64,000 nucleotides of DNA from Tetracentron sinense. Its lineage: Eukaryota; Streptophyta; Magnoliopsida; Trochodendrales; Trochodendraceae. Made by a program: the position numbers and the translations under genes. Location of the stretch: positions 13,212,607-13,276,606 of the forward strand of contig CM026568.1 in NCBI GenBank assembly GCA_015143295.1. Reading direction: 5' to 3'. The notes below the pieces were generated by a model, which was not told where the DNA came from, searched no databases, and saw nothing but the letters and a program-made list of their open reading frames with translations. This document shows positions 10,728 to 44,694 of this stretch, one piece after another (the first letter of the stretch is position 1; the number at the start of each line of letters is the position of its first letter).

Positions 10728-11515
10728 GGCCCTAACTCCGTAAATCCTCTCCACTTCCCGCCCTTTGTAAGAGTTTTTGATGTGACAAACGCCAATGGCG
10801 CATGTTAGCCAAGGATATTGATTTTTCTTCGAGGAAAATAAAAAATCCTCTGGGCGTAAACGTACTCTCGAGTTTCTGCCTTTCTGGGGTATGGGCGAGA
10901 GCAAATGGTGTGAAGGACGCTTCAACATTTTCTGTCATTGGCCCACGTTAATCAATCAGAGACCAACGCTCTAATAGTTAGGGGTGTATCCAAAATTGTA
11001 CTTAGTATCAAGGAAGAGACACCTCAGGAATTAGGCCTGATTGATCCGAGCTATTTTTTTAGTTTGAAAATGTGTTCAAACCGAACTCGAGTCGAAGCCT
11101 GTTTGATTTGGCTCGGCTCGGCTCGGTTTGAATGTTAAATAAAAATTAGAAGAAAATAATATTATATATATATAATGAATATAACTATTACCATATCTAC
11201 TATTATAATAAGATAAACGGGGTTAAAAAGTTGGTTATTTTTTACTAATATTCCTAATGAGTCCTAATTTTATGGTATCTTATAATTAGTAAGAGTGAAT
11301 TTTTTATATTTTTCTATTTTCCCATAACTCTATATAAAAAAAAAAATTAAGATATTATGTTATCTTATTTTACATGACAAAAGTTAGTGGGGATATTGAA
11401 GTAATACTAACTACAACTAACAATAATCCATCAATATCTCCACGATTCTCTCAAATCCTTATCATTATCTTCTCTCATGCTCCCTCCTTGGTCTCAACGA
11501 AGAGGCACACCTTCT

Positions 11516-11556
11516 CTACGTAGTAACTACTTTTCAAGAGAAAAAGTAGAGATATG
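11516..11556 (+). other. Conserved internal foldback of the Helitron unit (first copy)
   Basis: AACTACTTTT, six to seven bases, then AAAAAGTAGAG can form a hairpin, with outer bases (TCTCTAC and GTAGAGA) extending it. The pair recurs in most of the 24 units; where one arm changes (for example near 17560, where the right arm is deleted) the structure is lost. A role is not known to me. Confidence 0.55.
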
Positions 11557-11690
11557 TGTTGCGAGGTAGTTTCAACCCACTACTTTATCTTTTTAAGTTA
11601 AAATTTCAAAATTATCTCACTAAAGTCCCTCTTCCCAGTCTCTCTCCCCTTACCCTCTCTCTCACATACATCACACTTGCCCCCCACTAG

Positions 11691-11719
11691 TATATATAAT
11701 AATATTAATCATTATTTAC
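11691..11719 (+). repeat. Example of the 29-bp inter-Helitron spacer
   Basis: The spacer (TATATATAATAATATTAATC, then ATTATTTAC) stands between every pair of units with few changes. The sequence just right of the last unit (36404-36431, TGTATATAATAATTTTAATC then ATTATTTA) is the same 28 nt and then runs on into the host element. The spacer is therefore host flank carried into each repeat unit. Confidence 0.85.
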
Positions 11720-14700
11720 TCTACTATTATAATGAGAGAAGCGGGATTAAAAAGTTGGTTGATTTTTTTTCTAATATTCTTAATGAGTCCTAATTTTATG
11801 GTATCTTATAGTTAGCAAGGGTGGATTTTTTTATATTTTTCTATTTTGCCCATAACTCTATATAAAAAAATATTAAGATATTACGTTATCTTATTTTACA
11901 TGACAAAAGTTATTGGGGATATTGAAGTAATACTAACTACAACTAACAATAATCCCTCAATATCTCCAATATTCTCTCAAATCCTTATCATTATCTTCTC
12001 TCCTGCTCCCTCCTTGGTCTCGACGAAGAGGCACACCCTCTCAACGTAGTAACTATTTTTCAAGAGAAAAAGTAGAGATATGTGTTGCGAGGTAGTTTCA
12101 ACCAACTACTCTATCTTTTTAAGTTAAAATTTTAAAATTATCTCACTAGAGTCCCTCTTCCTAGTCTCACTCCCCTTACCCTCTCTCTCACGTGCATCGC
12201 ACTTGCCGCACACTAGTACATATAATAATATTACTCATTATTTACTTTACTATTATAATAAGAGAAGCATGGTTAAAAAGTTGGTTGATTTTTTTCTAAT
12301 ACTCCTAATGAGTCCTAATTTTATGGTATCTTATAGTTAGCAAGGGTGAATTTTTTATATTTTTCAATTTTGCCCATTACTCTATATAAAAAAATATTAA
12401 GATATTATGTTATCTTATTTAACATGACAAAAGTTAGTAGGGATATTGAAGTAATACTAACCACAACTAACAATAATCCATCAATATCTCCACGATTCTC
12501 TCAAATCCTTATCATTATCTTCTCTCATGCTCCCTCCTTGGTCTCAACGAAGAGGCACACCCTCTCTACATAGTAACTACTTTTCAAGAGAAAAAGTAGA
12601 GACATGTGTTGCGAGGTAGTTTCAACCCACTACAATATCTTATTAAGTTAAAATTTCAAAATTATCTCACTAAAGTCTCTCTCCCCTTACCCTCTCTCTC
12701 ACGTGCATCGCACTTGCCGCCCACAAGTAGATATAATAATATTAATCATTATTTACTCTACTATTATAATGAGAGAAGCCGGGTTAAAAAGTTGGTTGAT
12801 TTTTTTTTCTAATATTCCTAATGAGTCCTAATTTTATGGTATCTTATAGTTAGCAAGGGTGAATTTTTTTTGCCCATAACTCTATATAAAAAAATATTAA
12901 GATATTATGTTCTCTTAGTTTACATGACAAAAGTTAGTGGGGATATTGAAGTAATACTAACTACAACTAACAATAATCCATCAATATCTCCACGATTCTC
13001 TCAAATCCTTCTCATTATGTTCTCTCATGCTCCATCCTTGGTCTCAACGAAGAGGCACACCCTCTCTACGTAGTAACTACTTTTCAAGAGAAAAAGCAAA
13101 GACGTGTTGTGAGGTAGTTTCAACCTACAACTCTATATTTTTAAGTTAAAATTTTAAAATTATCTCACTAGAGTCCCTCTTCCCAGTCTCTCTCCCCTTA
13201 CCCTCTCTCTCACGTGCATCGCACGTGCTGCCCACTAGTATATATAATAATATTAATCATTATTTACTGTTGATTTTATTTCTAATATTACAAATGAGTC
13301 CCAATTTTGTAATATCTTATAGTTAGCAAGGGTAATTTTTTTTATATTTTTCTATTTAGCCCATAATTCTATGTAAAAAAAAGTAAGATATTATGTTATC
13401 TTATTTTATATGACAAAAGTAAGTGGGGATATTGAAGTAATACTAACTACAACTAACAATAATCCTTCAATATCTCCACGATTCTCTCAAATCCTTATCA
13501 TTATCTCCTCTCATCCTGCCTCCTTGGTCTCAACGAAATGGCACACCCTCTCTACGTAGTAACTACTTTTCGAGAGAAAAGGTAGAGACATGTCTTGCAA
13601 GGTAGTTTCAACCCACTACTCTATCTCTTTAGGTTAAAATTTTAAAATTATTTCACTACAGTCCCTCTTCCCAGTCTCTCTTCCCTTACACTCTCTCTCA
13701 CGTGCATCGCATGTCCCGCCCACTAGTATATATCATAATATTATTCATTATTTACTCTACTATTATAATGAGAGAAGCGGGGTTAAAAAGTTGGTTTAAT
13801 TTTTTTCTAATATTCCTAATTAGTCCCAATTTTATGGTATCTTATAGTTACCAAGGGCGAATTTTTTTATATTTTTTGTCGCGACCCAAAATACCCCCTA
13901 GGAGTTAAGGGTAAGTTGACTCGTGACCGCCGTACCATACCTCCAGTATGATACATAAGGCACACGTGGAAACCTGTCAGAGTACCTGAATATACATAAC
14001 GGAAACGAAATACAATGCACAGCGGAAAATAAAATACTAAACATAGCGGAAGCAAAATGAATACTCCTATAGCTTGGCTCAAGTAAGAACCAACAAGTAT
14101 ACATGTGTGAGAAACCCAAAAGTGGAGTGGACAAACCCCACACTCACATAACAAAATGACACAAGTTCTAAGTCGGTCGATCAACAGAAATCGAAGTCAC
14201 GACTCCTATCTAGAGCACCATCGTCATGATAGTGATCCATGGAAGGCTCCGGGTCACGGTACTCTTCCTCGACCCAAGGTTCGTCGCCACACAAATCGAA
14301 TGGAACCCGAGCACCTGCCGATCATAACAATATCGACTGAGCATGGAATACTCAGTGTATACAAACTAATAACAGTAAAGCGGTTGGGCATGGAGCATAC
14401 GAGACATGGAGAATGAAATCCGTAAAATCCTTAAAGTATGGAAACCGTGAAAACATATGTGAGATAATATTCGAAACAAAAACTGTAACCGTGTAAGTCA
14501 ATCGATAATCATAGCCTTATGAGTTCTTGTGAGTTCATGGAGTTACTTAGAGTCATTGTGATCCGTAGAGACATAGAGCATAGAGCAATACCGTAGAGCA
14601 TTTCCATAGAGCATAACCTTAGAGATCTTAGAGCATTTCATTGTGATCCGTGGAGCTTGTGAGACGATCTTAGAGCATTATCATAGAGTTTTCTTGTGAG

Positions 14701-15270
14701 CATGGTATGATCCTTAGAGCTTGTGAAACGATCTTAGAGAAATCATAGAGTTACTTAGAATCATTCATTATTCGTCTTTTCGTGAAAAACCTTTATTTGT
14801 ACTTTGAGAAATCCATGGAAACCATCGGTTCATGCGAGACATGCGAGCATATGCACTTAATAAGAGAAATCATCGTATTTAAACATAGAATCCCTTAGAG
14901 GTATTTCATCAAACACTTAGAGTGCATCATAATAGTAAGCTTCACCCAAGTATATAATCACACCTTTTTCATACATAAAATCAATACACATAGATAGGGC
15001 ATAGATAAGAAGAATCATACTTAGTAACTAGTAGGATTGCAAGATTGTAGTAGAGTGTATCTACCTTAGAGAAATCAATGGGTTTGACTCCCAATGGCTG
15101 GAACAAGCAAGAACAGTGAGTTCTTGGTTGGAAATCACCAAGGGAAGTGGAAGAACCTTGATCTTCCACAAGCTTGATCAACAAGTAGTTCCCCTCCTTC
15201 TTCTCTCTCTCAAAATCTCCTAAGATAGGGCACAGAGGGTTTCTGAAACCCTAAGGCACGAACTCAGCCT

Positions 15271-15277
15271 ATTTATA
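15271..15277 (-). promoter_or_regulatory. TATA box of the solo LTR
   Basis: On the minus strand CCTATAAATAGGC lies 60-250 bp downstream of the GATCGATC palindrome cluster and upstream of a leader containing GAGAGAGAAG. The matching box in the sister LTR is at 44276-44283. Confidence 0.65.
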
Positions 15278-15335
15278 GGCAAGGGGGTGGTGTTTAAAGT
15301 CTTAAACACCCTTAATGAAGAAAAACTGCGTATGA

Positions 15336-15520
15336 CCGATCGATCGGTGCTATGGACCGAGCGATCGGAGGCTTACCGATCGATCGGTGTTATGACCGAG
15401 AGATCGGTCAAAAACACACTCTCTGGAATTTTTCCCCATACAAAAAAGTTAACCGTGCGATAGCCATCGAGCGATCGGTAGTGGACCGATCGATCGCAGG
15501 TAATGACCGAGCGATCGGTG
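15336..15520 (-). promoter_or_regulatory. Cluster of ACCGATCGATCGGT palindromes in LTR U3
   Basis: At least eight sites of the form ACCGA(T/G)CGATCGGT or half-degenerate versions (GACCGAGCGATCGG) lie within 185 bp immediately upstream of the TATA box. Each carries two or three CpG. The sister LTR has the same kind of cluster at 44050-44216. Confidence 0.75.
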
Positions 15521-17376
15521 CTCTGTTATGTCTGGACTGTTTTGACCATATCTTTTTATTCGCTCGTCGGATTTCGACGATTCAACTTGCGTTGGATCCG
15601 TCTTTCGAAAACGAACACTTCTGACGTTTTGGAATTTCCGATTTCTCCCTTATTTATTAATTAGACTACGAAAACTATGAAAACGGCCAATTAGCTATGA
15701 AGGTGCTGTTTATTAAGGATGAAAAAGTTCGGGGTGCTACATTTTTCCCCTAACTCTATATAAAAAAAAATTAAGATATTCTGTTATCTTATTTTATATG
15801 ACAAAAGTTAGTGGGGATATTGAAGTTATACTAACTAAAACTAACAATAACCCCTCAATATCTCCACGATTCTCTCAAATCCTCATCATTATCTTCTCTC
15901 ATGCGCCCTCCAATTGGTCTCAACAAAGAGGCACACCCTCTCCACGTAGTAACTACTTTTCAAAAGAAAAAGTAGGGACATGCGTTCGAGGAAGTTTCAA
16001 CCTACTACTCTATCTTTTTAAGTTATCTCCGTGGAGTCCCCCTTCCCAGTCTATCTCCCCTTACCCTCTCTCTCACGTGCATAGCACGTGCCGCCCACTA
16101 GTATATCAAATAATATTAATCATTATTTACTCTACGATTATAATGAGAGAAGCGGGGTTAAAAAGTTGGTTGCTTTTTTTTCTAATGTTCCAAATGAGTC
16201 CTAATTTTAGGGTATCTTATAGTTAGCAAGGGTAAATTTTTTATATTTTTCTATTTTGCCCATAACTCTGTATGAAAAAAAAGAGAAGATATTATGTTAT
16301 CTTATTTTACATGACAAAAGTTAGTGGGGATATTGGAATAATACTAACTAATACTAACAATAATCTCTCAATATCTCAACGATTCTCTCAAATCCTTATC
16401 ATTATCTTCTCTCATGCTCCATCCTTGGTGTCAACGAAGAGGCACACCCTCTCTATGTAGTAACTACTTTTCTAGAGAAAAAGTAGAGACATGTGTTGCG
16501 AGGTAGTTTCCACCCACTACTCTATCTTTTTAACTTAAAATTTTAAAATTATCTCACTAGAGTCCCTCTTCCCAGTCTCTCTCCCCTTACACTCTCTCTC
16601 ACGGGCATCACACGTGCCGCCCACTAGTATATATAATAATATCAATCATTATTTACTCTACTATTATAATGAGAGAAGTGGGGTTAAGAAGTTGGTTGAT
16701 TTTTTTTTCTAATATTCCTAGTGAGTCCCAATTTTATGGTATCTTATAGTTAGCAAGGGTGAATTTTTTATTTTTTCTATTTTGCCCACAACTCTATATA
16801 TATATAAAAAAAAGTTATTATGTTATGTTATTTTACATAAAAAAAAGTTAGTGGGGATATTTAAGTAATACAAACTAGAACTAACAATAATCTCTCAATA
16901 TCTCCACGATTCTCTCAAATCCGCATCATTAGCTTCTCTCATGCTCCCTCCTTGGTCTCAACGAATAGGCACACCCTCTCTGCGTAGTAACTACTTTTCA
17001 AAAGAAAAAGTAGAGACATGTGTTGCAAGGTAGTTTCAACCCACTACTCTTTCTTTTTACGTTAAAATTTTAAAATTATCTCACTAGTGTCCCTCTTCCC
17101 AGTCTCTCTCCTCATACCCTCTCTCTCACGTGCATCTCACTTGCCGCCCATTAGTATAAATAATAATAATATTCATTATTTACTCTACGATTATAATGAG
17201 AGAAGCGGGGTTAAAAAGTTGGCTGCTTTTTTTTCTAATGTTCCGAATGAGTCCCAATTTTAGGGTATCTTATAGTTAGCAAGGGTAAATTTTTTATAAT
17301 TTTCTATTTTGCCCGTAACTCTGTATGAAAAAAAAAAGAAAGATATTATGTTATTTTATTTTACATGACAAAAGTT

Positions 17377-17462
17377 AGTGGGGATATTGGAATAATACTA
17401 ACTAATAATAACAATAATCCGTGGGGATATTGGAATAATACTAACTAATAATAACAATAATC
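17377..17462. repeat. 42-bp tandem duplication inside Helitron unit 9
   Basis: The block from GTGGGGATATTGG to AACAATAATCC is present twice head to tail. It is absent from the other units, so it arose locally. Confidence 0.85.
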
Positions 17463-20400
17463 CCTCAATTTCTCCACGATTCTCTCAAATCCTTATCATT
17501 ATCTTCTCAAATGCTCCATCCTTGGTGTCAACGAAGAGGCACCCCCTCTCTACGTAGTAACTACTTTTCTAGATGCGAGGTAGTGTCAACCCACTACTCT
17601 ATCTTTTTATATTTAAAATTTTAAAATTATCTCACTAGAGTCCCTCTTCCCAGTCTCTCTCCCCTTACACTCTCTCTCACGGGCATCGCACGTGCCGCAC
17701 ACTAGTATATATAATAATATCAATCATTATTTACTCTACTATTATAATGAGAGAAGTTGGGTTAAGAAGTTGGTTGATTTTGTTTTTCTAATATTCCTAG
17801 TGAGTCCCAATTTTATGGTATCTTATAGTTAGCAAGGGTGAATTTTTTATTTTTTCTATTTTGCCCATAACTTTTTTTTTAACTCTATATATATATATAA
17901 AAAAGTTATTATGTTATCTTATTTTACATAAAAAAAGTTAGTGGGGATATTTAAGTAATACAAACTAGAACTAACAATAATCCCTCAATATCTCCACGAT
18001 TCTCTCAAATCCGTATCATTAGCTTCTCTCATGCTCCCTCCTTGATCTCAACGAATAGGCACACCCTATCTACGTAGCAACTACTTTTCAAGAGAAAAAG
18101 TAGAGACATGTGTTGCGAGGTAGTTTCAACCCACTACTCTATCTTTTTACGTTAAAATTTTAAAATTATCTCACTAGAGTCCCTCTTCCCAGTCTCTCTC
18201 CCCTTACCCTCTCTCTCACGGGCATCGCACGTGCCGCCCACTAGTATATATAATAACATTAATCATTATTTACTCTACTATTATAATGAGAGAAGTGGGG
18301 TTAAGAAGTTGGTTGATTTTTTTTTCTAATATTCCTAATGAGTCCCAATTTTATGGTATCATATCGTTAGCAAGGGTTAATTTTTTATTTTTTCTATGTT
18401 GCCCATAAATCTATATATATAAAAAAAAGATATTAAGTTATCTTATTTAAATAACAAAAGTTAGTGGGGATATTTAAGTAATACAAACTACAACTAACAA
18501 TAATCCCCCAATATCTCCATGATTCTCTCAAATCCTTAACATTAGCTTCTCTCATGCTCCCTCCTTGGTCTCAACTAAGAGGTACACCCCCTCTACGTAG
18601 TAACTACTTTTCAAGAGAAAAAGTAGAGACATGTGTTGCGAGGAAGTTTCAACCCACTACTCTCTCTTTTTAAGTTGAAATTTTAATATTATCTCACTAG
18701 AGTTCCTCTTCCCAGTCTCTCTCCCCTTACCCTCTCTCTCACGTGCGTCTCACTTGCCGCCCATTAGTATATATAATAATATTATTCATTATTTACTCTA
18801 CGATTATAATGAGAGAAGCGGGGTTAAAAAGTTGGTTGATTTTTTTTCTAATATTCCAAATGAGTCCTAATTTTTTGGTATCTTACATTTAGCAAGTGTG
18901 AATTTTTTATATTTTTCTATTTTGCTCATAACTCTATATTAAAAAAATAATGAAGATATTATGTTATCTTTTTTACATGACGAAAGGGGGATATTGAAGT
19001 AATACGAACTACAACTAAAAATAATCCCTCAATATCTACATAATTCTCTCAAATCCTTATCATTATCTTCTCTCATGCGTCCTCCTTGGTCTCAACGAAG
19101 AGGCACACCCTCTCTACGTAGTAACTACTTTTCAAGAGAAAAAGTAGAGACAAGTGTTGCGAGGTAGTTTCAAGACACTACTCTATCTGTTTAAGTTAAA
19201 ATTTTAAAATTATCTCACTAGATTCCCTCTTCCCAGTATATCTCCCCTTACCCTCTCTCTCACGTGCATCGCATGTGTCGCCCACTAGTATATATAATAA
19301 TATTAATCATTATTTACTCTACTGTTATAATGAGAGAAGTGGGGTTAAAAAGTTGGTTGATTTTTGTTCTAATATTTCTAATAAGTCCCAATTTTATGGT
19401 ATCTTATAGTTAGCAAGGGTGAATTTTTTATTTTTTTCTATTTTGCCCATTACTCTATATATATATATATATATATATAAAACCATATTATGTTATCTTA
19501 TTTTACATGACAAAAGTTAGTGGGGATATTTAAGTAATACTAACGACAACTAATAATAATCCCTCAATATCTCCACGATTCTATCAAATCTTTACCATTA
19601 TCTTCTCTCATGCTCCCTCCATGGTCTCAACGAAGAAGGGCACCCTCTCTACGTAGTAACTACCTTTCAAGAGAAAAAGTAGAGCCCTCTTCCCAGTCTC
19701 TCTCACCTGACCCTCTCTCCCACGTTTTTCGCACTTCCCGCCCATTAGTATATATAATAATATTAATCATTATTTACTCTACTATTATAATGAGAGAAGC
19801 CGGGTAAAAAAGTTGGTTCATTTTTTTTCTAATATTTCTAATGAGTCCTAATTTTATGGTATATTATAGTTAGCAAGTGTGAATTTTCAATATTTTTCTA
19901 TTTTGCCCCTAACTCTATCTAAAAAAAATAATTAAGATATTATGTTACTTTATTTTACATGACAAAAGTTAGTGGGGATATTGAACTAATACGAACTACA
20001 ACTAACAACAATCCTTCAATATCTACACAATTCTCACAAATCCTTATCATTATCTTCTCTCATGCGTCCTCCTTGGTCTCAACGAAGAGGCACATCCTCT
20101 CTACGTAGTAACTACTTTTCAAGAGAAAAAGTATAGACATGTGTTGCGAGGTAGTTTAAACACACAACTCTATCTTATTTTAGTTAAAATTTTAAAATTA
20201 TCTCTCAAGAGTCCCCCTACCTAGTCTCTCTCCCCTTACCCTCTCTCAAGTGCATCTCATGTGTCGCCCACTAGTATATATAATAATATTAATCATTATT
20301 TACAGTTGATTTTTTTTCTAATATTCCTAATGAGTCCTAATTTTGTAATATCTTATAGTTAGCAAGGGAAGTGTTTTTTTATATTTTTTAATTTGGCCCA

Positions 20401-21401
20401 TAATTCTAGAGAAAAACAAATTAAGATATTATGTTATCTTATTTTTCATGACAAAAGTTAGTGGGGATATTGAAGTCATACTAACTACAACTAACAATAA
20501 TCCCTCAATATCTCCACAATTCTCTCAAATCCTTATCATTATGTCCTCTCATGCTCCCTCCTTGGTCTCAACGAAGAGGCACACCCTCTCTACTTAGCAA
20601 CTACTTTTCAGGCGAAAAAGTAGGGACATGTGTTGCAAGGTAGTTTCAACTGACTACTCTATCGTTTTAAGTTAAAATTTTGGAATTATCTCACTACAGT
20701 CCCTCTTCCAAGTCTCTCTCCCCTTACACTCTCTCTCACGTGCATCGCACGTGCCTCCCACCAGTACATATAATAATATTATTCATTATTTACTCTACTA
20801 GTATAATGAGAGATGCGGGGTTAAAAGTTGGTTGATTTTTTTTCTAATATTCCTAATTAGTCCTAATTTTATGGTATCTTATAGTTAGCAAGGGTTATAT
20901 TTTTCTATTTTGCCCCAAACTCTATATAAAAAAAAAATTAAGATATTATGTTATCTTATTTCACATGACAAAAGTTAGTGCGGATATTGAAGTAATACTA
21001 ACTAAAACTAACAATAACCCCTCAATATCTCCACTATTCTCTCTAATCCTTATCATTATCTTCTCTCATGCTCGCTCTAATTGGTCTCAATGAAGAGGCA
21101 CACCCTCTCTACGTATTAACAACTTTTCTAGAGAAAAAGTACAGACATGTGTTCCGAGGAAGTTTCAACCTACAACTCTATCTTTTTAAGTTAAAATTTT
21201 AAAATTATCTCACTAGAGTCCTTCTTCCCAGTCTCTCTCCCGTTACCCTCTCTCCCACGTGCATCGCACGTGCCGCCCACTAGTATATATAATAATATTA
21301 ATCATTATTTACTCTATAATTATAATGTGAGAAGCGAGGTTAAAAAGTTGGTTCATTTTTTTTTCTAATATTCCAAATTAGTCCCAATTTTAATGTATCT
21401 T

Positions 21402-23077
21402 TGTTACAACTTAATTTAATCCAAATTAATGGACATAAAATCAACAATAAAAATAATATACTTGCAAGTGCACAAGTGACACAGTTGATGTATCTGGTGA
21501 GCACAGGGTCGAATCCACAGGGATTGACTATTGTGCAACAAGAATTAAGGAAACGAAATCTAAAGAAAAGAGAGATTTAAAATCAGTTTTCCACTCAATG
21601 AGAATGGAGCAAAAATTACTGATAACTGTAAAGCAATGAAAAAGAGATCTAAGGTTTCAGGAAAATCCACCTATCCCTCCTTATGCTTAGATTTGGATGA
21701 AAACACATCTAGAATTAAATAAAGATTTAATCTAGATGGAAAATTATACGATAAAACCACTGACTATTAAATTCAATTGAATAATTAGAGAAATATAAAA
21801 ATCACTTTGTATCCAACTCACAGGGGATCCAAGCATTCCATATATCATTAGATCATACGAAATCAAAGAATATATAGAGAGGAACAATTAACCAAACTAA
21901 GAAAATTATTCAATTAAAATAAATAATCAAATCATCCACATCGTCCACATAAATTGGAAAAAGGTTTCAAATCCCTAACCTTAGAAGGGTGTTTAGCCAA
22001 CCATGTTTGGAGTTGTCATCATCCTTAATGGTTTTCCAAACACTACAATAAAATTACTCCAAAAAAAACTAAAAAAAGATGAGAGAAAAGAGAATGAGAA
22101 AAGATCAGAGAGCCCCAAAAGTCTCTCACTTTAGGTTTATATAGACTAAAGGGAAGAAGAGAAGGGAAGAAAACCAAAAGAGAAACTTCTAATTCCAAAA
22201 TTCCAACCAAAATTGCAATTTCCTCCACTTGACAATATGTTTTGACCCCTTAAACATCCGAATTAGGAGATCTTCGTGAAATATAATTTTGTTCCCCTTT
22301 AAGTCTTCTTTCCAAAACATCAAACCTTGCCTTAATTCGAATTTTGAGTCAAAAGTTATGTTTAAATTAGTAAGTACTGTCCAGATTAGGCGGGAATCCG
22401 GGAAATCCTCATTCTTTGTTTGAGATTTGTTGCTAAATAATAGCACTCCTCTAACCATCCACGAAATTTCTTGCTTTTCTTGTAGATTTAGTTGACCTCC
22501 ATTAAGCTCCTTGCTTGAATTCCAAAATCCACCCAAAATAAAGAGTTCTTGTGACCAAAATAGGATTTCTCCTTTTTTCTGAAATAGAAACATCAATATA
22601 GCACACTTCTTCTTTCTAATTCAAGAGAGTTCCAGCCTTTTTATGCCAAAATCATATTAATCCATATCTTCCTAAGATTCTCCAGCCATGTTGTAGAATC
22701 TTTCTATACTTGGTCTTGGGCTTTGCTCTTGGGCTTTGACTTGGACTTTGCTCTTGGGCTTTGACTCTTTTAGATCTTTGAGTTGAACATGAGCTATTTG
22801 AAACTTTGGACTTCTTGAATCTCGAGAGTAGTCTGGGGTTAGGATTCCTACAAAAAATAAATACACGTAATAAGTCTCTCTTAAAAATATTTTGCATGCG
22901 GCCTTCCAAGACATATATAAATACATGCAAATGTATCATGAAAATTAAGAGAAAGAGGACAACGCAATGGTGAGGAGAGAATACACCACTTTACGTGTAA
23001 AAATGAAGATATAAACCAAAGAAGTATGACAATGCTTATTTAAATGAGGATAATTAAGCAAAATTAAGCACTTATCA
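21402..23077 (-). repeat. 3' LTR of the Athila-like element
   Basis: 1676 bp, the plus-strand left copy. On the minus strand it starts TGATAAGTGC and ends AGTTGTAACA. It carries a direct repeat of TTGGGCTTTG (22726-22772) and a TATATAAA box (about 22136-22144 on the minus strand). The sequence just outside it (23078-23095, minus strand GGTTGGGGGTTGT) is the likely polypurine tract. Confidence 0.9.
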
Positions 23078-24574: not shown

Positions 24575-25962
24575 TCAATCGGGATAAACGGGATCTTCCA
24601 GAGTTGTGGACTCAACATCTGGGGTGAAATTCTCTAAAAATGGTTTCAAGCGTTGACCATTGACTTTAAAAACATTACCGTTCTCAGGATTCTCAATCTC
24701 GACAGTTCCATAAGGGTAAACAGTTTTCACAATGAAAGGACCTGTCCAACGAGATCGAAGCTTACCAGGAAATAGATGCAAACGAGAATTATACAAAAGA
24801 ACTTTGTGAGAAGGCTCAAAAGATTTTCGAAGAATATGCTTATCATGAAAAACCTTCATTCTTTCCTTGTAAATTTTGGCACTCTCGTAAGCATCATTTC
24901 GAATTTCGTCCAACTCATCCAGTTGGAGTTTGCGAAGCGAGCCTGCTTTCTCCAAATCAAAATTGAGTGTCTTTATCGCCCAGTAACCCTTGTGTTCCAA
25001 TTCAACAGGCAAGTGACAAGCTCTTCCAAAGACAATTCGATATGGAGACATTCCAATCGGGGTTTTGAAAGCTGTACGGTAAGCCCATAGCGCATCGGTT
25101 AGCCGTAATGACCAATCCTTACGGTCTGGATTTACAGTTTTTTGTAAAATATGTTTAATCTCCCGATTGGATATCTCCACTTGTCCACTTGTTTGTGGGT
25201 GATAAGGGGTAGAAACTTTATGAGTTATCCCATATTTTTTCATCAAGGCCGATTACAGAAGTGCGTACCCCCATCACTGATAATAGCTTGAGGTGTTCTA
25301 AACCTTGATAAAACATTTTCTTTTAAAAATCGCAAGACCGTTTTGTGGTCATTGGTTTTGCTTGGAACAGCCTTGATCCATTTTGACACATAATCAACGG
25401 CTACTAAGATATAAAGATACCCAAAAGAAGGAGGGAATGGTCCCATGAAATCGATGCCCCAACAGTCAAAGACTTCAATAATCAAAATTGGGTTGAGAGG
25501 TATCATATTCCGATGGGAGATTCCTCCTAATTGTTGGCAACGCTCGCATGCTTTGCAAAACTCATGAGTGTCCTTAAAAAGAGTGGGCCAATAAAAACCG
25601 CATTGCAGAATTTTTGCGGTAGTCTTTTTGACAGAAAAATGACCACCACATCCTTCAGAGTGACAAAAGGAGATGACATTCAGGTGTTCAGAATCAGGCA
25701 CACATCTCCTAATAATTTGATCAGAACAATATTTAAACAGATAAGGATCATCCCAGAAAAATCTACGTACCTCGGTCAAAAATTTCTTTTTATCTTGTTG
25801 TTTCCAATGAATAGGAAGGTTACCTGTAACAAGATAATTCGCAATATCCGCAAACCAAGGTAATTGGGAGACAACAAAAAGTTGCTCATCGGGAAACGTG
25901 TCTTTGATCGGCATTGTCTCCAAGGAATCAGAGAGCACAAGACGGGATAAATGATCAACCAC
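24575..25962 (-). pseudogene. Integrase region, split by a small deletion
   Basis: The upstream frame (25243-25962, 239 codons) contains the zinc-binding HHCC region (H at FCHSEG and GGHFS, CKACERC) and the first catalytic aspartates (CWGIDFMGPF, ISDGGTHF). It stops just after the second. The second frame (24575-25246, 223 codons) resumes at [20 protein letters not shown], has the catalytic Glu in [11 protein letters not shown], and ends with the C-terminal binding region ([12 protein letters not shown]). The join lacks a few bases near 25245, shifting the frame inside the core. The upstream frame is also cut off from RT by the stop at 25993. Confidence 0.9.
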
Positions 25963-25992
25963 TACATTTTCTACTCCTTTTTTATCTTTAAT

Positions 25993-27616
25993 TTATAAGT
26001 CAAATTCCTGGAGTAGAAGGATCCACCTAAGGAGTCTTGGTTTAGCATCCTTCTTAGAAAGAAGGTACTTTAAAACTGCATGGTCAGTGAATATAATAAT
26101 TCGAGATCCAATCAAGTAAGATCGGAACTTGTCAAGTGCAAAGACTACGGCTAGGAGTTCTTTTTCGGTAGTAGAATAGTTCATCTGAGCACTGTTCAAG
26201 GTCCTACTTGCATAGTAAATGACACAAGGCTTCTTATCCTTGCGTTGCCCTAGCACGGCCCCAACCGCATAATCACTAGCATCACACATGATTTCAAATG
26301 GTAAACTCCAATCAGGTGGTTGCATTATAGGAGCAGAAGTCAACATGCCTTTCAGCTTTGCAAAAGCTTCCTGGCATGCTTTCGTCCACTCGAAGGAGTT
26401 TTCCTTTGATAGAAGGTTACACAATGGTCTAGATATTCCACTAAAGTCTTTAATAAACCTTCTGTAAAATCCTGCATGACCTAGAAAAGATCTAATGTCC
26501 TTAATGGTCTTTGGGGTAGGCAAATTGGCTATCAGATCAATTTTGGCTCTATCCACTTCGATTCCTCGGGAGGAGACAATGTGGCCAAGCACGATCCCTT
26601 TAGAGACCATAAAATGACACTTCTCCCAATTCAAAATGAGGTTTTTCTCCTCACATCTAACCAAAACATTCTTTAAATGAAACAGACAATCATCAAAAGA
26701 ATCACCAAACACAGAAAAATCATCCATAAACACTTCAAGAAAACGCTCTACCATATCGCTAAATATACTCAACATGCATCTTTGGAATGTGGCAGGAGCA
26801 TTACACAACCCAAATGGCATCCTTCGATAAGCAAAAGTGCCGAATGGACATGTAAAAGTGGTCTTTTCTTGATCCTCAGGTGCAATTTCTATCTGATTAT
26901 AACCGGAGTACCCATCTAGGAAACAATAAAATTTATGACCAACTACTCTTTCTAAAATTTGGTCCATGAAGGGCAACGGGAAATGGTCTTTCCTAGTCAC
27001 TGAGTTCAACTTCCTATAGTCAATGCACACTCGCCAACCAGTTGTGACTCTAGTTGGGATTAATTCATCATTAGCATTCTTGACTACAGTTATACCGGAT
27101 TTCTTAGGTACCACTTGGGTAGGATTTACCCACTGACTATCAGAAATAGGGTATATGATCCCTACATAGGACCTCTGCTCTAACCACATCTTTCATGTTG
27201 GGATTCAGCCTGCGCTGCATCTCTCTAGAGGGTTTAGCATTATCCTCCAAATATATCCTATGGGTACAAATTAAGGGGCTGATTCCCTTAATATCAGCTG
27301 TGGTCCACCCTATTGCACCTTTGTGTTCTCTAAGAACATCAATTAATTTTTCTTCCTGAGTCTCATTCAATTGTGAGGAGATGACCACTGGGAATGTCTC
27401 TGCTTGTCCCAAAAATGCATATTTGAGATCAGCTGGCAAAGGTTTCAACTCAAGCTTTGGTGTTTGGATACTTGACGGGAGGGGTAGGGTATCGCGAGGT
27501 GGCAATTCCTCAAAACGTGATCCCCACTTATTAGTATCCAACACCGGAATAGATTCCAACAAAGAATTTACAGAATTAATTAAAATGTCTTCATTAAAAT
27601 CATTAAAATGTGCCAA
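25993..27616 (-). pseudogene. Reverse transcriptase / RNase H region, frameshifted and stopped
   Basis: The first frame (27140-27616) is the pre-RT linker (LPADLKYAFLG, GAIGWTTADIKGISP, the RREMQ-like SREMQRRLNPNM). A small deletion near 27170 shifts to the main frame (25993-27189, 398 codons). That frame holds RT boxes [40 protein letters not shown] and the RNase H motifs [35 protein letters not shown]. It ends in a TAA at 25993-25995 exactly where related proteins continue through IKDKKG (encoded just beyond the stop), so this is a nonsense change and not a natural end. Confidence 0.92.
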
Positions 27617-27655
27617 ACAAGCTTCTAGAGGATCAGAAAAAGAAGATTGAAGAAA

Positions 27656-30006
27656 TTAGTCTTTCACAAGAGTTTCAATCAAGTTTACTCCATGCACATC
27701 ATCATCATCCCCAGGTTGTTTGTAGATATTAAAAATATTTAATTCCAAAGTCATATTGCCAAACGAGAGTTTCATGACACCATTCCTGCAATTGATCAAA
27801 GCATTGGAGGTTGCAAGGAATGGGCGGCCTAAAATAACAGGAATTTGAGTGCATGCATTCAACACAGGTTGTGTGTCCAAGACAATAAAATCAACAGGAA
27901 AGTAAAATTTGTCTACTTGGACCAACACATCCTCAACTACCCCTCTCGGTATTTTCACTGAACGGTCAGCGAGTTGGAGTGTTACTTTAGTGGGCTTTAG
28001 CTCACCAAGACCCAACTGCTCATACACCGAGTAGGGTAAGAGGTTAACACTAGCCCCAAGGTCAAGCAAAGCTTGCTCTATCCTAAAGTTCCCAATAATA
28101 CAAGAAATTGTTGGGCATCCTGGATCTTTGTATTTGGGTGGGGTATTATATTGAATGATTGCACTCACTTGTTCTGTTAAGAAAGCTTTCGTTTGTACAT
28201 TAAGCCTACGCTTGACTGTATATAAATCTTTTAAAAACTTGGCATATGATGGAATTTGTTTGATAGCATCTAACAAGGGGATGTTGATCTTTACCCGTTT
28301 GAAGATTTCTAATATATCAGCATTATGGACTAGCTTTTGAGGAGGTTGTAACCTTTGGGGAAAAGGAGCAGGTATCGGACATTGCAAAGCCATATCAGAT
28401 TTGGACTTAACAAGTTCATCATCACTCTTTGATTTTAAAGATTCCTCAGGTTTGTGAACCTTCTTTGGAATATCTTTATCAATTATTTTTCCATTTCGTA
28501 GAGTGGTAATGGACTTGATATGTTCCTCTTGGGAATCTGAAGAATTTGAATTACTTACCTCAAATTGACCTCTAGGATTTGGTTGAGGTTGAGCAGAAAA
28601 TTTGCCCTTTTCTTGAAAGCTCAACGAAGAGGTCAACTCTTTGACAGAATTCTTCAGATCATTGATAGCTTGCATTGTCTGATTATTAATGTTTGTTTGA
28701 CCTTGCATGAATTGTTGCAACGTCTCCTCAAGGGTCTTCTTATGTGGAGGCACATAAGGAGTATGAGTGAAAGACCCCTGAGGAGGGTTGTTTGCAGTAG
28801 GACCATTTTTCCAACTAAAGTTGGGATGGTTCCTCCAACCAGGATCGTAAGTTTCCGAGTAGGGAGAAGAAAAAGGCCTTTTATAGGTGTTCATGACATT
28901 TGCTTGATCATGTAACACCTCTTGAAAAGCTGGGATTGTAGGACAATCCTGAGTTCGGTGTACATTAGTCTCGCATATGCCACAAACATCTTCCACTTTT
29001 TCAGTGGCCTTAATTGAGTTTACTTTCATAAGTTCCATGGCTTCTACTTTTCTGGTCAAACTGGCTATTTTGGCATTCACATCATTATTCTCTTCTTTCA
29101 GGAGGTACATACCTCCCTTAGTCATGGCATTAGGCTTGGTCTTATCTGACCTATCAGATCTATCAGTGTTATCCCAAGATTGGGCATTTTTAGCTAATTG
29201 GTCAAAATAATCCCAAGCCTCTTCGGGATCTTTATTTAGAAACTCACCATTGCACATCATCTCTACAAACTGACGCATTTGAGAGGTTAAACCTTCATAG
29301 AAGAAACTAACGGTGCGCCATGTCTCGTAGCCATGATGGGGGCAAGTCAACAATAATTCTTTGAAACGTTCCCAACATTGGAAAAAAGTTTCATTCTCCT
29401 TTTGGGAGAAATTCATGATGTTCCTCCTAAGAGTATTAGTCTTATGGGTAGGGAATAATTTTTTTAGAAACTCCCTGGTCAGTTCTTGCCATGTGCCAAT
29501 GGATCTTGGCTTTAGAGAATTTAGCCAATTTTTGGCCTTCTCTTTTAAAGAGAAAGGGAACAATTTTAACCTAACCACATCATCACTAACATTTTGATTG
29601 CGTAAGGTTGCACAAACCTCATCAAATTGTGTAGGTAAGGACTTTCTGAGTCTAAGCCATGGAACTTAGGAAGTAATTGAATCACTCCCGGTTTTAAGTC
29701 AAAAGTATTTGCATTAATGGGAAAAACCATACAAGACGGAGAACTCATCCTTGTTGGTTGCAAATATTCACGCAAGGTCAGCATTGGTGGATTATTATGA
29801 ACTCCATTATCTCCCTGATCACTTTCATTGTCAGTCATAGTGTCTGATGAATAAGAATGATCAGAATCTTCAAACAAGTTATTAGACAAGTCTTCAATTA
29901 CAAAGTCTGTTCTCCTCAAGCGGCTTGTGTGATCTCGATTCCACGTGATCATACAAATGAGAGGACTCAAAGGGAAAGTCAAGGATTCAAACAAGAATGC
30001 ATGCAC
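27656..30006 (-). pseudogene. gag-protease region, frameshifted
   Basis: The N-terminal frame (29566-30006) runs to FHGLDSESPYLH, after which an indel near 29630 puts the conserved continuation in the other frame. The second frame (27656-29578, 640 codons) has the gag core (LKEKAKNWLNSL, FFQCWERFKELLLTCPHHG), a degenerate knuckle (CGICETNVHRTQDC), a Gln/Asn-rich linker, and the protease with LLDLGASVNLLP (the DLGAS form usual in plant gypsy elements) and VILGRPFL. It ends at a TAA (27656) that is in phase with the following pol frame, so gag-pro and pol were one polyprotein. Confidence 0.9.
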
Positions 30007-30263
30007 CTCCTATAAGTCTTCTATACGAACAAGCTAGCTAAAGGGGCGACAGACGAGGCACGTATACAGAGTATACGCCGAGCTTCCCCACTAGGTTGTA
30101 AGTTGACAGTAGATGTAAGATAAGTAGGAGAATAACGAGAGTGAAGGAGTGAGTTTACCAGAAGTGAAGAAATTCCTGAACTTAGGCAAAGCAATGTCTG
30201 TTTCCAAGTAGGCAAGCAATAGATGTACCTGTTTTACACGAGCAATATCAATCCGCTTAATTA

Positions 30264-30610
30264 CCTACCATGGGAGGGTGCACGGAATTCCAACCTTCCA
30301 CCTATGTTATATATTCCCTTCAAGCTAGTTAATTGACTTCCTACCGTGGGAGGGTGCACGGAATTCCAACCTTCCACTAAAAATAAAAATAAAAATTCAG
30401 ACTTTTTTTTTTTTTTTTTTTCAATCAAGTTAAAAAACAAAAAAAATAGAAGTTAGAAGTTAAGAGTTAGAAGTTAGAAGCAAGAAAGTAAAAGTTAGCA
30501 GTTAGCAGTTAGAAGTTAGAAGCAAGAAAGTAAAAGTTAGCAGTTAGCAGTTAGAAGTTAGGAGCAAGAAAGTAAAAGTTAGATGTCAGGTGCAGAAAGT
30601 AAAAGTTAGG
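30264..30610. repeat. Leader repeats of the Athila-like element
   Basis: Between the 5' LTR and gag. A 38-bp block (CCTACC.TGGGAGGGTGCAC...CCTTCCAC) is present at 30264-30301 and 30340-30377. From 30448 to about 30610, AGTTAGAAGTTAG/AGTTAGCAGTTAG/GCAAGAAAGTAAA units are repeated in tandem. A run of 20 T lies at 30401-30420. Confidence 0.8.
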
Positions 30611-30680
30611 AGTTAGAATTAGAGGGAATGAGGAATAGGAGAATTTCGTAACCCGTGTTCTCTACACACGTTGCAATCCT

Positions 30681-30694
30681 CGGCAACGGCGCCA
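30681..30694 (-). other. Primer-binding site of the Athila-like element
   Basis: On the minus strand, six bases after the 5' LTR, TGGCGCCGTTGCCG is complementary to a tRNA 3' end ending CGGCAACGGCGCCA. That is the site normally used by Athila/Tat elements. Confidence 0.85.
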
Positions 30695-30700
30695 AAAACT

Positions 30701-32376
30701 TGTTACAACTTAATTTAATCCAAATTAATGGACATAAAATCAAGAGTAAAAATAATATACTTGCAAGTGCACAAGTGACACCGTTGATGTATCTGGTGAG
30801 CACAGGGTCGAATCCACAGAGATTGACTATTGTGCAACAAGAATTAAGGAAACGAAATCTAGAGAAAAGAGAGATTTAAAATCAGTTTTCCACTCAATGA
30901 GAATGGAGCAAAAATTACTAATAACTGTAAAGCAATGAAAAAGAGATCTAAGGTTTCAGGAAAATCCACCTATCTCTCCTTATGCTTAGATTTGGATGAA
31001 AACACATCTAGAATTAAATAAAGATCTAATCTAGATGAAAAATTATACGATAAAACCACTGACTATTAAATTCAATTGAATAATTAGAGAAATATAAAAA
31101 TCACTTTGTATCCAACTCACAGGGGATCCAAGCATTCCATATATCATTAGATCATACGAAATCAAAGAACATATAGAGAGGAACAATTAACCAAACTAAG
31201 AAAATTATTCAATTAAAATAAATAATCAAATCATCCACATCGTCCACATAAATTGGAAAAATGTTTCAAATCCCTAACCTTAGAAGGGTGTTTAGCCAAC
31301 CATGTTTGGAGTTGTCATCCTCCTTAATGGTTTTCCAAACACTACAATAAAATAACTCCAAAAAAAACTAAAAGAAGATGAGAGAAAAGAGAATGAGAAA
31401 AGATCAGAGAGCCCCAAAAGTCTCTCACTTTAGGTTTATATAGACTAAAGGGAAGAAGAGAAGGGAAAAAAATCAAAAGAGAAACTTCTAATTCCAAAAT
31501 TCCAACCAAAATTGCACTTCCCTCCACTTGACAACATGTTTTGACCCCTTAAACCTTTGAATTAGGAGATCTTCGTGAAATATAATTTTGTTCCCCTTTA
31601 AGTCTTCTTTCCAAAACATCAAACCTTGCCTTAATCCGAAATTTGAGTCAAACGTTATGTCTAAATTAGTAAGTACTGTCCAGATTAGGCGGGAATCCGA
31701 GAAATTCTCATTCTTTGTTTGAGATTTGTTGCTAAATAATAGCACTCCTCTAACCATCCACGAAATTTCTTGCTTTTCTTGTAGATTTAGTTGACCTCCA
31801 TTAAGCTCCTTGCTTGAATTCCAAAATTCACCCAAAATAAAGAGTTCTTGTGACCAAAATAGGATTTCTCCTTTTTTCTGAAATAGAAACATCAATATAG
31901 CACACTTCTTCTTTCTAATTCAAGAGAGTTCCACCATTTTTATGCCAAAATCATATTAATCCATATCTTCCTAAGATTCTCCAGCCATGTTGTAGAATCT
32001 TTCTATACTTGGTCTTGGGCTTTGCTCTTGGGCTTTGACTTGGACTTTGCTCTTGGGCTTTGACTCTTTTAGATCTTTGAGTTGAACATGAGCTATTTGA
32101 AACTTTGGACTTCTTGAATCTCGAGAGTAGTCTGGGGTTAGGATTCCTACAAAAAATAAATACACGTAATAAGTCTCTCTTAAAAATATTTTGCATGCGG
32201 CCTTCCAAGACATATATAAATACATGCAAATGTATCATGAAAATTAAGAGAAAGAGGACAACGCAATGGTGAGGAGAGAATACACCACTTTACGTGTAAA
32301 AATGAAGATATAAACCAAAGAAGTATGATAATGCTTATTTAAATGGGGATAATTAAGCAAAATTAAGCACTTATCA
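30701..32376 (-). repeat. 5' LTR of the Athila-like element
   Basis: 1676 bp, same length as the other LTR with only scattered substitutions (for example AACAATAAA against AAGAGTAAA near the plus-strand start). Being adjacent to the primer site, this is the transcription-side LTR on the minus strand. Confidence 0.9.
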
Positions 32377-35300
32377 ATCTTATAGTTAGCAAGGGTGAAT
32401 TTTTTATATTTTTCTACTTTGCCCCTAACTCTATATAAAAAAAATTAAGATATTATGTTATCTTATGTTACATGAAGAAAGTTAGTGGGGATATTGAAGT
32501 AATACTAACTTCAACTAACAATAACACCTCAATATCTCCCCGATTCTCTTAAATCCTTATCATTATCTTCTCTCATGCTCTTTCCAATTGGTCTCAACGA
32601 AGAGGCACACGCTTTGTACGTTGTAACTACTTTTCAAGAGAAAAAGTAGAGACATTTGCTCCGAGGATGTTTCAACCTATTGCTCTATCTTTTCAAGTTG
32701 AAAATTTTAAATTATCTCACTAGAGTCCCTTTTCCTAGTCTCTCTCCCCTTACCCTCTCTCTCACATGCATAGCACGTGCCGCTCACTAGTATATATAAT
32801 AATATTAATCATTATTTACTCTACTATTATAATGAGTGAAGCGGGGTTAGAAAGTTGGTTGATTTTTTTTCTAATATCCAAATGAGTCCTAATTTTATGA
32901 TATCTTATAGTTAGCAAGGCTAAATTTTTTATATTTTTCTATTCTTCCCATAACTCTGTATAAAAAAAATTAAGATATTATGTTATCCTATTTTAATAAC
33001 AAAAGTTAGCGGGGATATTGAAGAAATAATAACTACAACTAACAACAATCCCTCAATATCCCACGATTCTCTCAAATCCTTATCATTATCTTCTCTCATG
33101 CTTTATCCTTGGTCTCAATGAAGAGGCACACCCTCTCAACGTAGTAACAACTTTTCAAGAGAAAAAGTGGAGACATGTGTTGCGAGATAGTTGAAATCTA
33201 CTACTCTATCTTTTTAAGTTAAAATTTCTAAATTATCTCACTAGAGTCCCTCTTCCCAGTCTCTCTCCCCTTACCCTCTCTCTCACGTGCATCGCACGTG
33301 CCGCCCACTAGTATATATAATAATATTAATCATTATTTACTCTAATATTATAATGATAGAAGCGGAGTTAAAATGTTGGTTGCTTTTTCTTTTCGAATGT
33401 TCCAAATGAGTCCCAATTTTATGGTATCTTATTGTTAGCAAGGGTAAATTTTTTATGTTTTTCTATTTTGCCCATAACTCTGTATAAAAAAAAATTAAGA
33501 TATTATGTTATCTTATTTTACATGACAAAAGTTAGTTGTGATATTTAAGTAATACTAACTACAACTAACAATAATCCCTTAATATCTCTACGATTCTCTC
33601 AAATCCTTATCATTATCTTCTCTCATGCTCCCTCCTTGGTCTCAACGAAGAGGCACACCCCCTCTACTTAGTAACAACTTTTCAAGAGAAAAAGTAGAGA
33701 CTTGTGTTGCGAGGTAGTTTCAACCCACTACTCTATCTTTTTAAGTTAAAATTAAAAAATTATCTCACTAGAGTCACTTTTCCCAATCTCTCTCGCCTTA
33801 CCCTCTCTCTCACGTGCATCGCACGTGCCGCCCACTAGTATATATAATAATATTAATCATTATTTAATCTACTATTATAATGAGAGGAGCGGGGAGAAAA
33901 TTTTGGTTGATTTTTTTTCTAATATTTCTAATGAGTCGCAATATGATGGTATCTTCTAGTTAGCGAGGGTGAATTTTTTATATTTTGCCCATAACTCTGT
34001 ATTAAAAAATTAAGATATTATGTTATCTTATTTTACATGACAAAAGTTAGTGGGGATATTGAAGTAATAATAACTACAACTAACATTAATCCCTCAATAT
34101 CACCACGATTCTCTCAAATCTTTATCATTATCATCTCTCATGTTCCCTCCTTGGTCTCAACGAAGAGGCACACCCTCTCTACGTAGTAACTACTTTTCAA
34201 GAGAAAAAGTAGAGACATGTGTTGCGAGGTAATTTCAACTTACTGCTCTATCTTTTATGTTAAAAATTTCAAATTATCTCACTAGAGTCCCTTTTCCCAG
34301 TCTCTCACCCCTTACCCTCTCTCTCATTTGCATCGCACGTGCCGTCCACTAGTATATATAGTAATATTAATCATTATTTACTCTACTATTATAATGAGAG
34401 AAGAGGGGTTAAAAAGTTGGTTGATTTTTTTTCTAATGTTCTAAATGGATCCCAATTTTATGGTATCTTATAGTTAGCAAGGGTAAATTTTTTATATTTT
34501 TCTATTTTCCCATAACTCTGTATAAAAAAAAAATTTGGGATATTATGTTATCTTATTTTACATGACAAAGGAGTGGGGATATTGAAGTAATACTAACTAC
34601 AACTAAAAATAATCCCTCAGTATCTCCACGATTCTTTGAAATCCTTATCATTATCTTCTCTCATGCTCCCTCCTTGGTCTCAACGAAGAGGCACACCCTC
34701 TCTACGTAGTAACTACTTTCAAGATAAAAAGTAGAGACATGTGTTGCGAGGTAGTTTCAACCCACCACTTTATCTTTTTAAGTTTAAATTTTAGAACTAT
34801 GTCACTAGTGCCCCTCTTCCCTGTCTCTCCCCCTTACCGTCTCTCTCACATGCATCGCACGTGCCGCCCACTAGTATGTATAATAATATTAATCATTATT
34901 TACTCTACTTTTATAATGAGAGAAGCGGGGTTAAAAAGTTGGTTGATTTTTTCCTAATATGCCTAATGAGTCCCAATTTTATGGTATTGTATAGTTTGCA
35001 AGGGTAAATTTTTTATATTTTTCTATTTTGCCCATAACTCTATATAAAAAAATTAAGATATTATGTTATCTTTTTTTACATGACAAAAGTTAGTGGGGAT
35101 ATTGAAGTAATACGAACTACAACTAACAATAATCCCTCAATATCTACACAATTCTCTCAAATCCTTATCATTATCTTCTCTCATGCTCCCTCCTTGGTCT
35201 CAACAAAGAGGCACACCCTTTCTACGTAGTAACAACTTTTCAAGAGAAAAAGTAGAGACATGTGTTGCGAGGTAGTTTCAACCCACTGCTTTATCTTTTT

Positions 35301-36639
35301 AAGTTTAAATTTTAGAACTATCTCACTAGTGTCCCTTTTCGCAGTCTCTCTCCCCTTACCTTCTCTCTCACGTGCCGCCCACTAGTATGTATAATAATAG
35401 TAATTATTATTTACTCTACTATTATAATGAGAGAAGCGGGGTATGTGTCTCAATTTTATGGTATTGTATAGTTAGCAAGGGTAATTTTTTTATATTTTTC
35501 TATTTTGCCCATAACTCTATATAAAAAAATTAAGATATTATGTTATCTTATTTTATATGACAAAAGTTAGTGGGGATATTGAAGTAATACTAACTACAAC
35601 TAACAATAATCCCTCTATATCTCCACAATTCTCTCAAATCTTTATCATTATTTTCTCTCATGCTCCGATCCCTCCTTTGTCTCAACGAAGAGGCACACCC
35701 TCTCTACGTAGTAACTACTTTTCAAGAGAAAAAGTAAAGACATGTGTTGCGAGGTAGTTTCAACCCACTTCTCTATCTTTTTAAGTTAAAATCTTAAAAT
35801 TATCTTACTAGGGTCCCTCTTCCCAGTCTCTGCCCCCTTACCCTCTCTCTCACGTGCATCGCACGTGCCGCCCACTAATATATATAATAATATTAATAAT
35901 TGTTTACTCTACTATTATATTGAGAGAAGCGGGGTTAAAAGGTTGGTTGATGTTTTTTCTAATATTCCTAATGAGTCTCAATTTTATGGTATCTTATAGT
36001 TAGTAAGGATAAATTTTTTATATTTTTCTATTTTTCCCATAACTCTATATAAAAAGAAATTAAGATATTATGTTATCTTAATTTACATGACAAAAGTTAG
36101 TGGGGATATTGAAGTAATACTAGCTAGAACCTACAATAATGCCTCAATATCTCCACGATTCTCTAAAATCCTTATCATTATCTTCTCTCATTATCCCTCC
36201 TTGGTCTCAACGAAGAAGCACACCCTCTCTACGTAGTAACTACTTTTCAAAAGAAAAAGCAGAGACATGTGTTGCGAGGTAGTTTCAACCCACTACTTTA
36301 TCTTTCTAAGTTCAAATTTTAAAATTATCGTACTAGAGTCTTTCTTCCCAATCTCTGTCCCCTTACCCTCTCTCTCACGTGCGTTGCACGTGCCGCCCAC
36401 TAGTGTATATAATAATTTTAATCATTATTTAAAAATAAATTTTTAAGAAATCAAGCTGAGCTCGATCCCAGCCAAGCTCGACTTGATCTTTAATCAATTT
36501 GAGCTTGAGCCAAGTGAACCAGATTCGAGCAGAGCTTGTTGAGCAATAGATTAAGCCGAGCTCGATCCTAAATTTTTATATTTCAAGCTTGCTCAAGCAT
36601 GGTTGAGCTCAGCTCAGCTCGACTAGAATACACCCTTAA

Positions 36640-37171
36640 TAACAGGGAAATCATTGTGATTTCTAATTCAAATCGTTTCAGGCAAAAAGATTTAAATTGC
36701 AGGTGAATATTTTAATTGGGTAAATCTCATTCGATTTACGATTCAGATTGTGATATGCGATTCAAATCGTACGATTCATGTGATTCTAACAGAAAACATC
36801 TGTTACAAATCAATACTTAACAAAATATTTTAATGTTTTTTATTCTGTCAATTTTTTAAATGTGTTTTTTGTTTTTTAAGAAATGGGGAGAAACGTGAAA
36901 ATCTCTATTACAAACATATCAAAACCCCTATTTGGGTTTTCATGTTTGGGGAAGATTTCAACTTGGGCAAGACTTTTTGAATCAATAAAGACGAGATACT
37001 TTTTAATTCTAAAATGTTAGGTGAGATTAATTCTAAAAATTTACAAAATACTAGCCTCAGTCACAATCTTCCAATTATGCAAAGTAGTGGAAGATACAAG
37101 GGGCAGCAACATGTGCCAAATCATCTCTCTGTCATAAGGTAGCAACACCACGTTTTTCACCACCTTGCGTC
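36640..37171. other. Intergenic, no gene seen
   Basis: AT-rich spacer between the GAGC-rich element and the copia element. It contains CGATTCA/GATTCAAATCG words near 36730-36790 that form short inverted repeats. No coding potential. Confidence 0.5.
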
Positions 37172-41060: not shown

Positions 41061-41136
41061 CTATTTTTGCAAATTAAAATCTTTTCTCTAAGATGATTAA
41101 ATCTTTTATAAAAACAGAGACCTAGTTGATACCAAT

Positions 41137-42937: not shown

Positions 42938-42978
42938 TAAGAATGCCACTTTGCCTTGTGGTGGTGCTTTTTTTTTTG

Positions 42979-44623: not shown

Positions 44624-44694
<71 letters not shown>

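Follow-up and report, generated by a model that had tools for sequence, protein, structure and literature searches.

One of the defining features of Helitrons is a GC-rich hairpin that lies 10-15 nt before the 3' end (PMC6591975). In Helraiser, going by excerpts of the published accounts, this hairpin acts as the terminator; its bypass captures 3' flanking sequence, and circles with joined element ends form and can be copied in turn (PMC4778049, PMC5876387). Tandem Helitrons have been described, in the accessible part of one report, from bats, Drosophila, rice, maize and a fungus, with self-insertion or the copying of circles considered as their source and spacers not described (PMC5148889). 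The plant centromeric arrays of Xiong, Dooner and Du (2016), as cited by later papers, contain from several to several hundred head-to-tail units and have been attributed to a proposed rolling-circle process (PMC12628747, PMC5876387, PMC5148889, PMC6591975); these summaries present them as truncated copies, many of the arrays combining several 5' ends with one 3' end. Here we describe an array of 24 Helitron units in Tetracentron sinense, in which a short piece of 3' flanking DNA is repeated together with the element. The window analysed is the 64,000-nucleotide stretch CM026568.1:13212607-13276606, and genome searches were run over the 1.161-Gb assembly.

With one unit as the query, blastn recovers the 24 head-to-tail units of the original prediction, all on the forward (+) strand within 11196-36403. 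Each is a non-coding Helitron of about 496 bp unless trimmed, repeating with a period of about 525 bp. The majority unit comprises 525 bp, made up of 496 bp running from TCTACT to CTAG and a 29-bp spacer, and no stop-to-stop frame in it exceeds 78 codons. The spacer, which follows the 3' end of each unit and whose first copy, TATATATAATAATATTAATCATTATTTAC, lies at 11691..11719 (+), is present with few changes at all 23 inner junctions, and has diverged by 3.7% against 5.8% for the unit. A 28-bp copy of it, equal in 26 of 28 positions, continues past the last CTAG (36404..36431, +) and is read here as the start of the original right flank; beyond 36431 the DNA is unrelated, and no T stands at the spacer's end. 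The right edge of the array is thus placed at 36431 rather than 36403. A direct CTAG-TC join is found at none of the 23 inner junctions, each of which carries 29 bp of 3' flank, so the repeated unit is not the bare rolling-circle element that had been proposed.

The junction of the spacer with the following 5' end has 28 matches in the genome at up to three mismatches: 21 in the array, seven in an unplaced contig (C1414) and none elsewhere. Two array junctions are absent from this count because units 5 and 15 lack their 5' ends. The unit consists of the element and an unvarying spacer, which is found again as the right flank of the array, and it is limited to this locus and C1414. In a tree with 12 near-full dispersed copies the array units group together as a single clade (branch support 98/97). 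The dispersed rows of this tree are those longer than 450 bp and above 80% identity; L060, which is the same place as L059, and the second L049 unit, at 79.8%, are not in it. One spacer at 23 junctions, its restriction to this locus and the copy contig, and the single clade together support one insertion multiplied in place, as originally predicted. The term satellite, also used there, is generous, there being one chromosomal locus of 24 units and its copy contig instead of several loci. The same evidence disposes of 24 neighbouring insertions of one Helitron family: unlike Helitrons do occur side by side in the genome (L074, L076), but the single clade and above all the constant spacer, found at no other locus except C1414, make independent insertion practically negligible.

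The ends of the units are more variable than the original prediction, which gave every unit a TC start, a hairpin and a CTAG end. TC at the predicted kind of start (11196 in the first unit) occurs in 21 of the 24 units, with TT in unit 3 and the first ~38 bp missing from units 5 and 15; CTAG ends 18 of the 24, and CTAA one more. The exact hairpin CACGTGCATCGCACGTG is retained in six units and all seven stem pairs in nine, one of these with a G-U pair, while unit 22 has lost one arm of the hairpin. The 3' end at 36376..36403 (+) illustrates the arrangement, with a 7-bp stem and a 3-nt loop, then 7 nt and CTAG. In the majority unit the hairpin is GC-rich, with the same stem and loop lengths, lies 11 nt from the end and folds with -9.5 kcal/mol. 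The + strand of the array has seven perfect, GC-rich hairpins of 7 bp with CTRR after them; among 100 Markov sequences, each of 25 kb, the mean is 0.13 and the maximum 2. No terminal inverted repeats were found, the terminal 40 nt sharing only a 13-column purine-rich likeness that lies off the very ends.

The dispersed family fixes the ends independently of the array. The exact hairpin has 3165 matches in the genome, 1605 of them forward and 1560 reverse, and the pattern in reversed order has none. We read 28 of these loci (L001-L008, L011-L030), which contain 29 hairpins; in 25 a CTAG ends 11 nt further on, the exceptions being L004, L005 (CTGG), L020 and L029. Most of the 28 loci resemble the array unit at the 3' end only, with L008 alike over its full length and L015 and L028 in pieces. 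The 5'-end pattern TCTACTATTATAATGAGAGAAGC, with a base other than G eleven bases upstream, has 194 matches, array units included. Among 100 listed matches, none of them from the array, two extra upstream bases are conserved as TC in 87 and preceded by A in 67, and conservation falls beyond them. The family 5' end is accordingly placed after an A, as TCTCTACT, 2 bp outside the predicted start, which moves the left end of the array from 11196 to 11194. At 20 loci fetched by their 5' ends, two of which (L059 and L060) are one place, the 3' end reads CTAG followed by T in 13 and CTA with another base in two, and no 3' end aligned in five. In the array the two bases corresponding to the family TC are altered, to TA in unit 1 and to AC (once AA) in the inner units; TCTACTATTATAAT or a near variant follows them in 22 of the 24 units.

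A 5' TC in dispersed copies, a 3' CTRR, a GC-rich hairpin, insertion between A and T and the lack of terminal inverted repeats are the canonical features of Helitrons, and the single A before and T after the array are present at the coordinates originally given. By these sequence features the array units belong to a Helitron family and are non-autonomous. The dispersed copies are bounded by the same Helitron ends, so the identification is not undone by single copies with other boundaries, which the original prediction had named as evidence against it. No relatives were found in viral contigs (three patterns) or in prokaryote contigs (one pattern).

The units differ from each other by 10.6% on average and by 3-8% from their majority sequence. 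The distances of units 17 and 6 may be slightly inflated, since the interrupted halves were joined with about four bases of a long terminal repeat (LTR) still in unit 17, and with one insertion base and the target repeat still in unit 6. Among the columns with at least 18 filled rows, 308 derived variants are private to one unit and 142 are shared. The tree is star-like: inner branches make up 12.6% of its length, whereas trees simulated under steady growth, itself a crude null, average 48% (0.1% quantile 27%). Identity does not decay along the array (Mantel r -0.13, with 4592 of 5000 permutations as high). Exchange and block duplications among units followed. Units 7 and 9 differ by 4.3% and units 8 and 10 by 4.6%, units 7-8 resembling units 9-10 as a block; units 5 and 15 have a 5' deletion and 11 variants in common, and units 6 and 16 have six common variants.

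We favour, at close to an even chance, an account in which a single Helitron insertion was followed by amplification of the element and its 3' flank through transposase read-through, most units arising in a short time. A non-autonomous Helitron of about 498 bp would have inserted once between an A and a T in an AT-rich stretch. Transposase would have cleaved at the 5' TC end, copying would have overrun the stop signal of hairpin and CTAG into the 3' flank, and the end of the flank would have been joined to the 5' end of the element. Rolling-circle copying of the joined product might then have amplified the 525-bp segment quickly to most of the present units, with block duplications added by later exchange. 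Rapid growth, breakpoints made by the transposase and rolling-circle copying are what we infer in this account. The multiplied segment most likely starts at the 5' terminus, give or take one base, and stops 27-29 bases past the 3' terminus, and breakpoints within 1 nt of the one and 27-29 nt past the other are what read-through predicts. If the spacer is the original 3' flank, the site before insertion would read ACCA followed by TGTATATAATAATTTTAATCATTATTTA.

Several observations weigh against read-through. In Helraiser, according to excerpts of the report, 94% of new circles are precise CTAG-TC joins, about half of all recovered circles being aberrant (PMC5876387); no array junction is a precise join of this type. 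The inner junctions have AC (one AA) in place of the family TC, meaning that the join was imprecise or has since mutated. The coincidence of a single breakpoint is modest evidence for read-through, and unequal exchange acted later in the array. The empty site, whose recovery had been suggested with the original prediction, has no match in the genome at up to three mismatches. The joined flanks align weakly (68%) across their join with 62755-62938 of the window, within an AT repeat, and we did not accept this match as an empty site.

Other junctions in the genome bear on the same question. Spaced junctions with 1-31 nt before TCTCTACTATTATAA number eight. One of them, L049 (on C22), is a dimer of the same family, its units 93.4% alike over 453 aligned bases, and its right flank opens with the same 8 bp that make up its spacer. 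It counts as a second case in favour of read-through, but TATATA stands on both sides of this element, so plain recombination can explain it. Three of the seven others were read, and none yielded a whole-unit duplication within one family: L074 and L076 pair unlike Helitrons, and L075, a less clear case, contains direct repeats that are short and diverged (75% over ~100 bp). At L040, another spaced junction, no alignment to the array unit was obtained. Direct joins of CTAG to a T followed by C, T or G account for 22 of 33 matches. Sixteen were read. Fifteen of them show one composite again and again, in which the downstream element belongs to another subfamily; at the remaining one, L035, a copy of the array's own subfamily follows. 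In the composite (L033, L034, L036-L039, L041-L048, L050) the Helitron 3' end is joined directly to a GCCGATGTCATG-like 5' end, and the two subfamilies may move as a unit.

Almost as likely as read-through is ordinary tandem duplication, by microhomology or slippage between AT-rich flanks, to a dimer of the Helitron with its flank that then grew and was evened out by unequal crossing-over and gene conversion, with no Helitron machinery at work after insertion. The flanks are indeed AT-rich, L049 fits microhomology, and block exchange is evident in the unit pairs 7/9, 8/10 and 5/15. The likeness of the left flank to the spacer bears on this explanation in two ways. Real 40-bp windows outside the array seldom match its score (10 of 5522, and 9 of 130 at like A+T content), which favours duplication between similar flanks and counts against read-through. 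Dinucleotide shuffles, on the other hand, reach the score often (572 of 2000 and 1008 of 2000), so nothing indicates an extension of the repeated segment further left, and a direct repeat around the insertion was rejected on this ground despite the small number of real windows scoring as high. Tandem duplication is further opposed by a left breakpoint within 1 nt of a 5' terminus that the dispersed copies fix independently. The star-like tree and the lack of decay with distance also speak against it, though homogenisation before divergence could give both too.

A concatemer of a read-through circle, formed at another locus and integrated here ready-made with the donor's flank as its spacer, would likewise yield one repeated unit and a star-like tree. 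It is improbable: the last spacer passes into the right flank and lacks a terminal T, and the junction of spacer and 5' end was found nowhere else, no search having been made for a donor with a lone CTAG and spacer. Multiplication of a single copy in assembly, to which tandem repeats are generally prone, can be set aside almost entirely, given units that are about 10% different and have private deletions and insertions, and the recurrence of seven units in the same order in C1414.

C1414 is a 43.9-kb unplaced contig that matches 22709-36846 and 44589-56704 of the window at 97-98.5%. It holds units 18-24 and part of unit 17 in preserved order, with 61 differences over 4832 aligned bases (1.3%) from the right part of the array and 1.8-2.6% elsewhere, and its right array edge reads as in the window. 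No array was found in its first 17.6 kb, only partial matches, one of them to a piece of LTR at 93% and the others short. The 7.7 kb at 36847-44588 of the window are absent from C1414, which may represent the other haplotype or a duplicate.

Unit 1, the outermost Helitron, occupies 11194..11690, its 5' end, which reads TATCTACT, being set by the dispersed copies. All units are on the + strand. Units 2-4 are full length (11720..13238; starts 11720, 12246 and 12757), and unit 5 (13269..13726), like unit 15, is without its first ~38 bp. Unit 6 (13756..16101) is interrupted by an insertion, and units 7-12 follow at 16131..19288 (starts 16131, 16657, 17184, 17735, 18274 and 18797). Unit 13 (19318..19748) has an internal deletion. 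Units 14-16 lie at 19778..21283 (starts 19778, 20305 and 20794), and unit 17 (21313..32790) contains an LTR retrotransposon. Units 18-24 complete the array at 32820..36403 (starts 32820, 33341, 33868, 34382, 34904, 35415 and 35908).

About half of the 25.2-kb array is foreign DNA, brought in by the two LTR-type insertions in units 6 and 17. The first (13877..15741, strand unassigned), delimited partly by eye, is a solo-LTR-like piece of 1865 bp with TG...CA ends and TTTTT on either side; it has ~75% identity to 43897-44211 of the window over 325 aligned columns. The second is a retrotransposon, presumably of the Ty3 type, at 21402..32376 on the - strand, with the target duplication ATCTT at 21397-21401 and 32377-32381. 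Its LTRs are 98.03% identical (33 mismatches in 1678). A marginal Rfam match to snoR71 at 29328-29434 (41.2 bits against a cut-off of 40), which lies within the retrotransposon coding region but on the opposite strand, is probably due to chance. The likely order of events is amplification of the array (10.6% between units) and then insertion of the retrotransposon, whose LTRs differ by 2.0%, at about the time of the C1414 split (1.3% in the array).

The array itself lies within an apparent element of ~450 bp, whose GAGCTCG-rich arms form the flanks at 10978-11193 and 36404-36639 and whose ends are the imperfectly inverted TTAGGGGTGTATCC and TTAAGGGTGTATTC (12 of 14 by eye). We take it to resemble hAT-type miniature inverted-repeat transposable elements of plants. 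Elsewhere in the window, an X8 reading frame has a T. sinense X8-domain protein as its best match, which aligns to 59652-61674 as three pieces of 86, 92 and 100% identity.

Complete units that each include the same short stretch of 3' flank would preserve the two breakpoints of the multiplying event, which makes read-through copying testable in genomes. If read-through is the correct account, other Helitron arrays should begin at TC and have short 3'-flank spacers of differing length. It is tentatively suggested, and a little less readily than either of the two leading explanations, that read-through replication left the array behind as a fossil in the chromosome and that a single failure of the stop signal can found a satellite-like array.

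In the literature searched, which consisted of open-licence papers available in part, we saw no complete tandem Helitrons with a constant 3'-flank spacer. Tandem Helitrons are known, and the present array is a variant of them. Like the arrays of Xiong and colleagues, the present one consists of plant Helitrons multiplied head to tail. It differs from them, as far as the citing summaries describe them, in that its units are mostly complete, retain the 3' end in 24 of 24 cases and are separated by 29 bp of 3' flank. The same genome contains an arrangement closer to those summaries: at L059 (on C1 near 29411000), which at 92.5% is the closest dispersed relative among the loci read, three tandem pieces of ~108 bp, containing the first 90 bp of the Helitron, precede one full copy, giving many 5' ends and one 3' end. 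Other rolling-circle elements tied to tandem repeats, the Helitron and Helentron satellites (PMC12628747, PMC8268682, PMC7492417), are described in the accessible passages as repeats in the element's central region, whereas here the whole element repeats. With Helraiser, as far as excerpts show, the array shares the 5' TC, the hairpin terminator, CTAG, the capture of flank by read-through and the joining of ends in circles (PMC4778049, PMC5876387), the last two on the read-through account. Precise joins dominate the new circles of Helraiser; in T. sinense a piece of flank separates the ends, and what resulted is an array in the chromosome.

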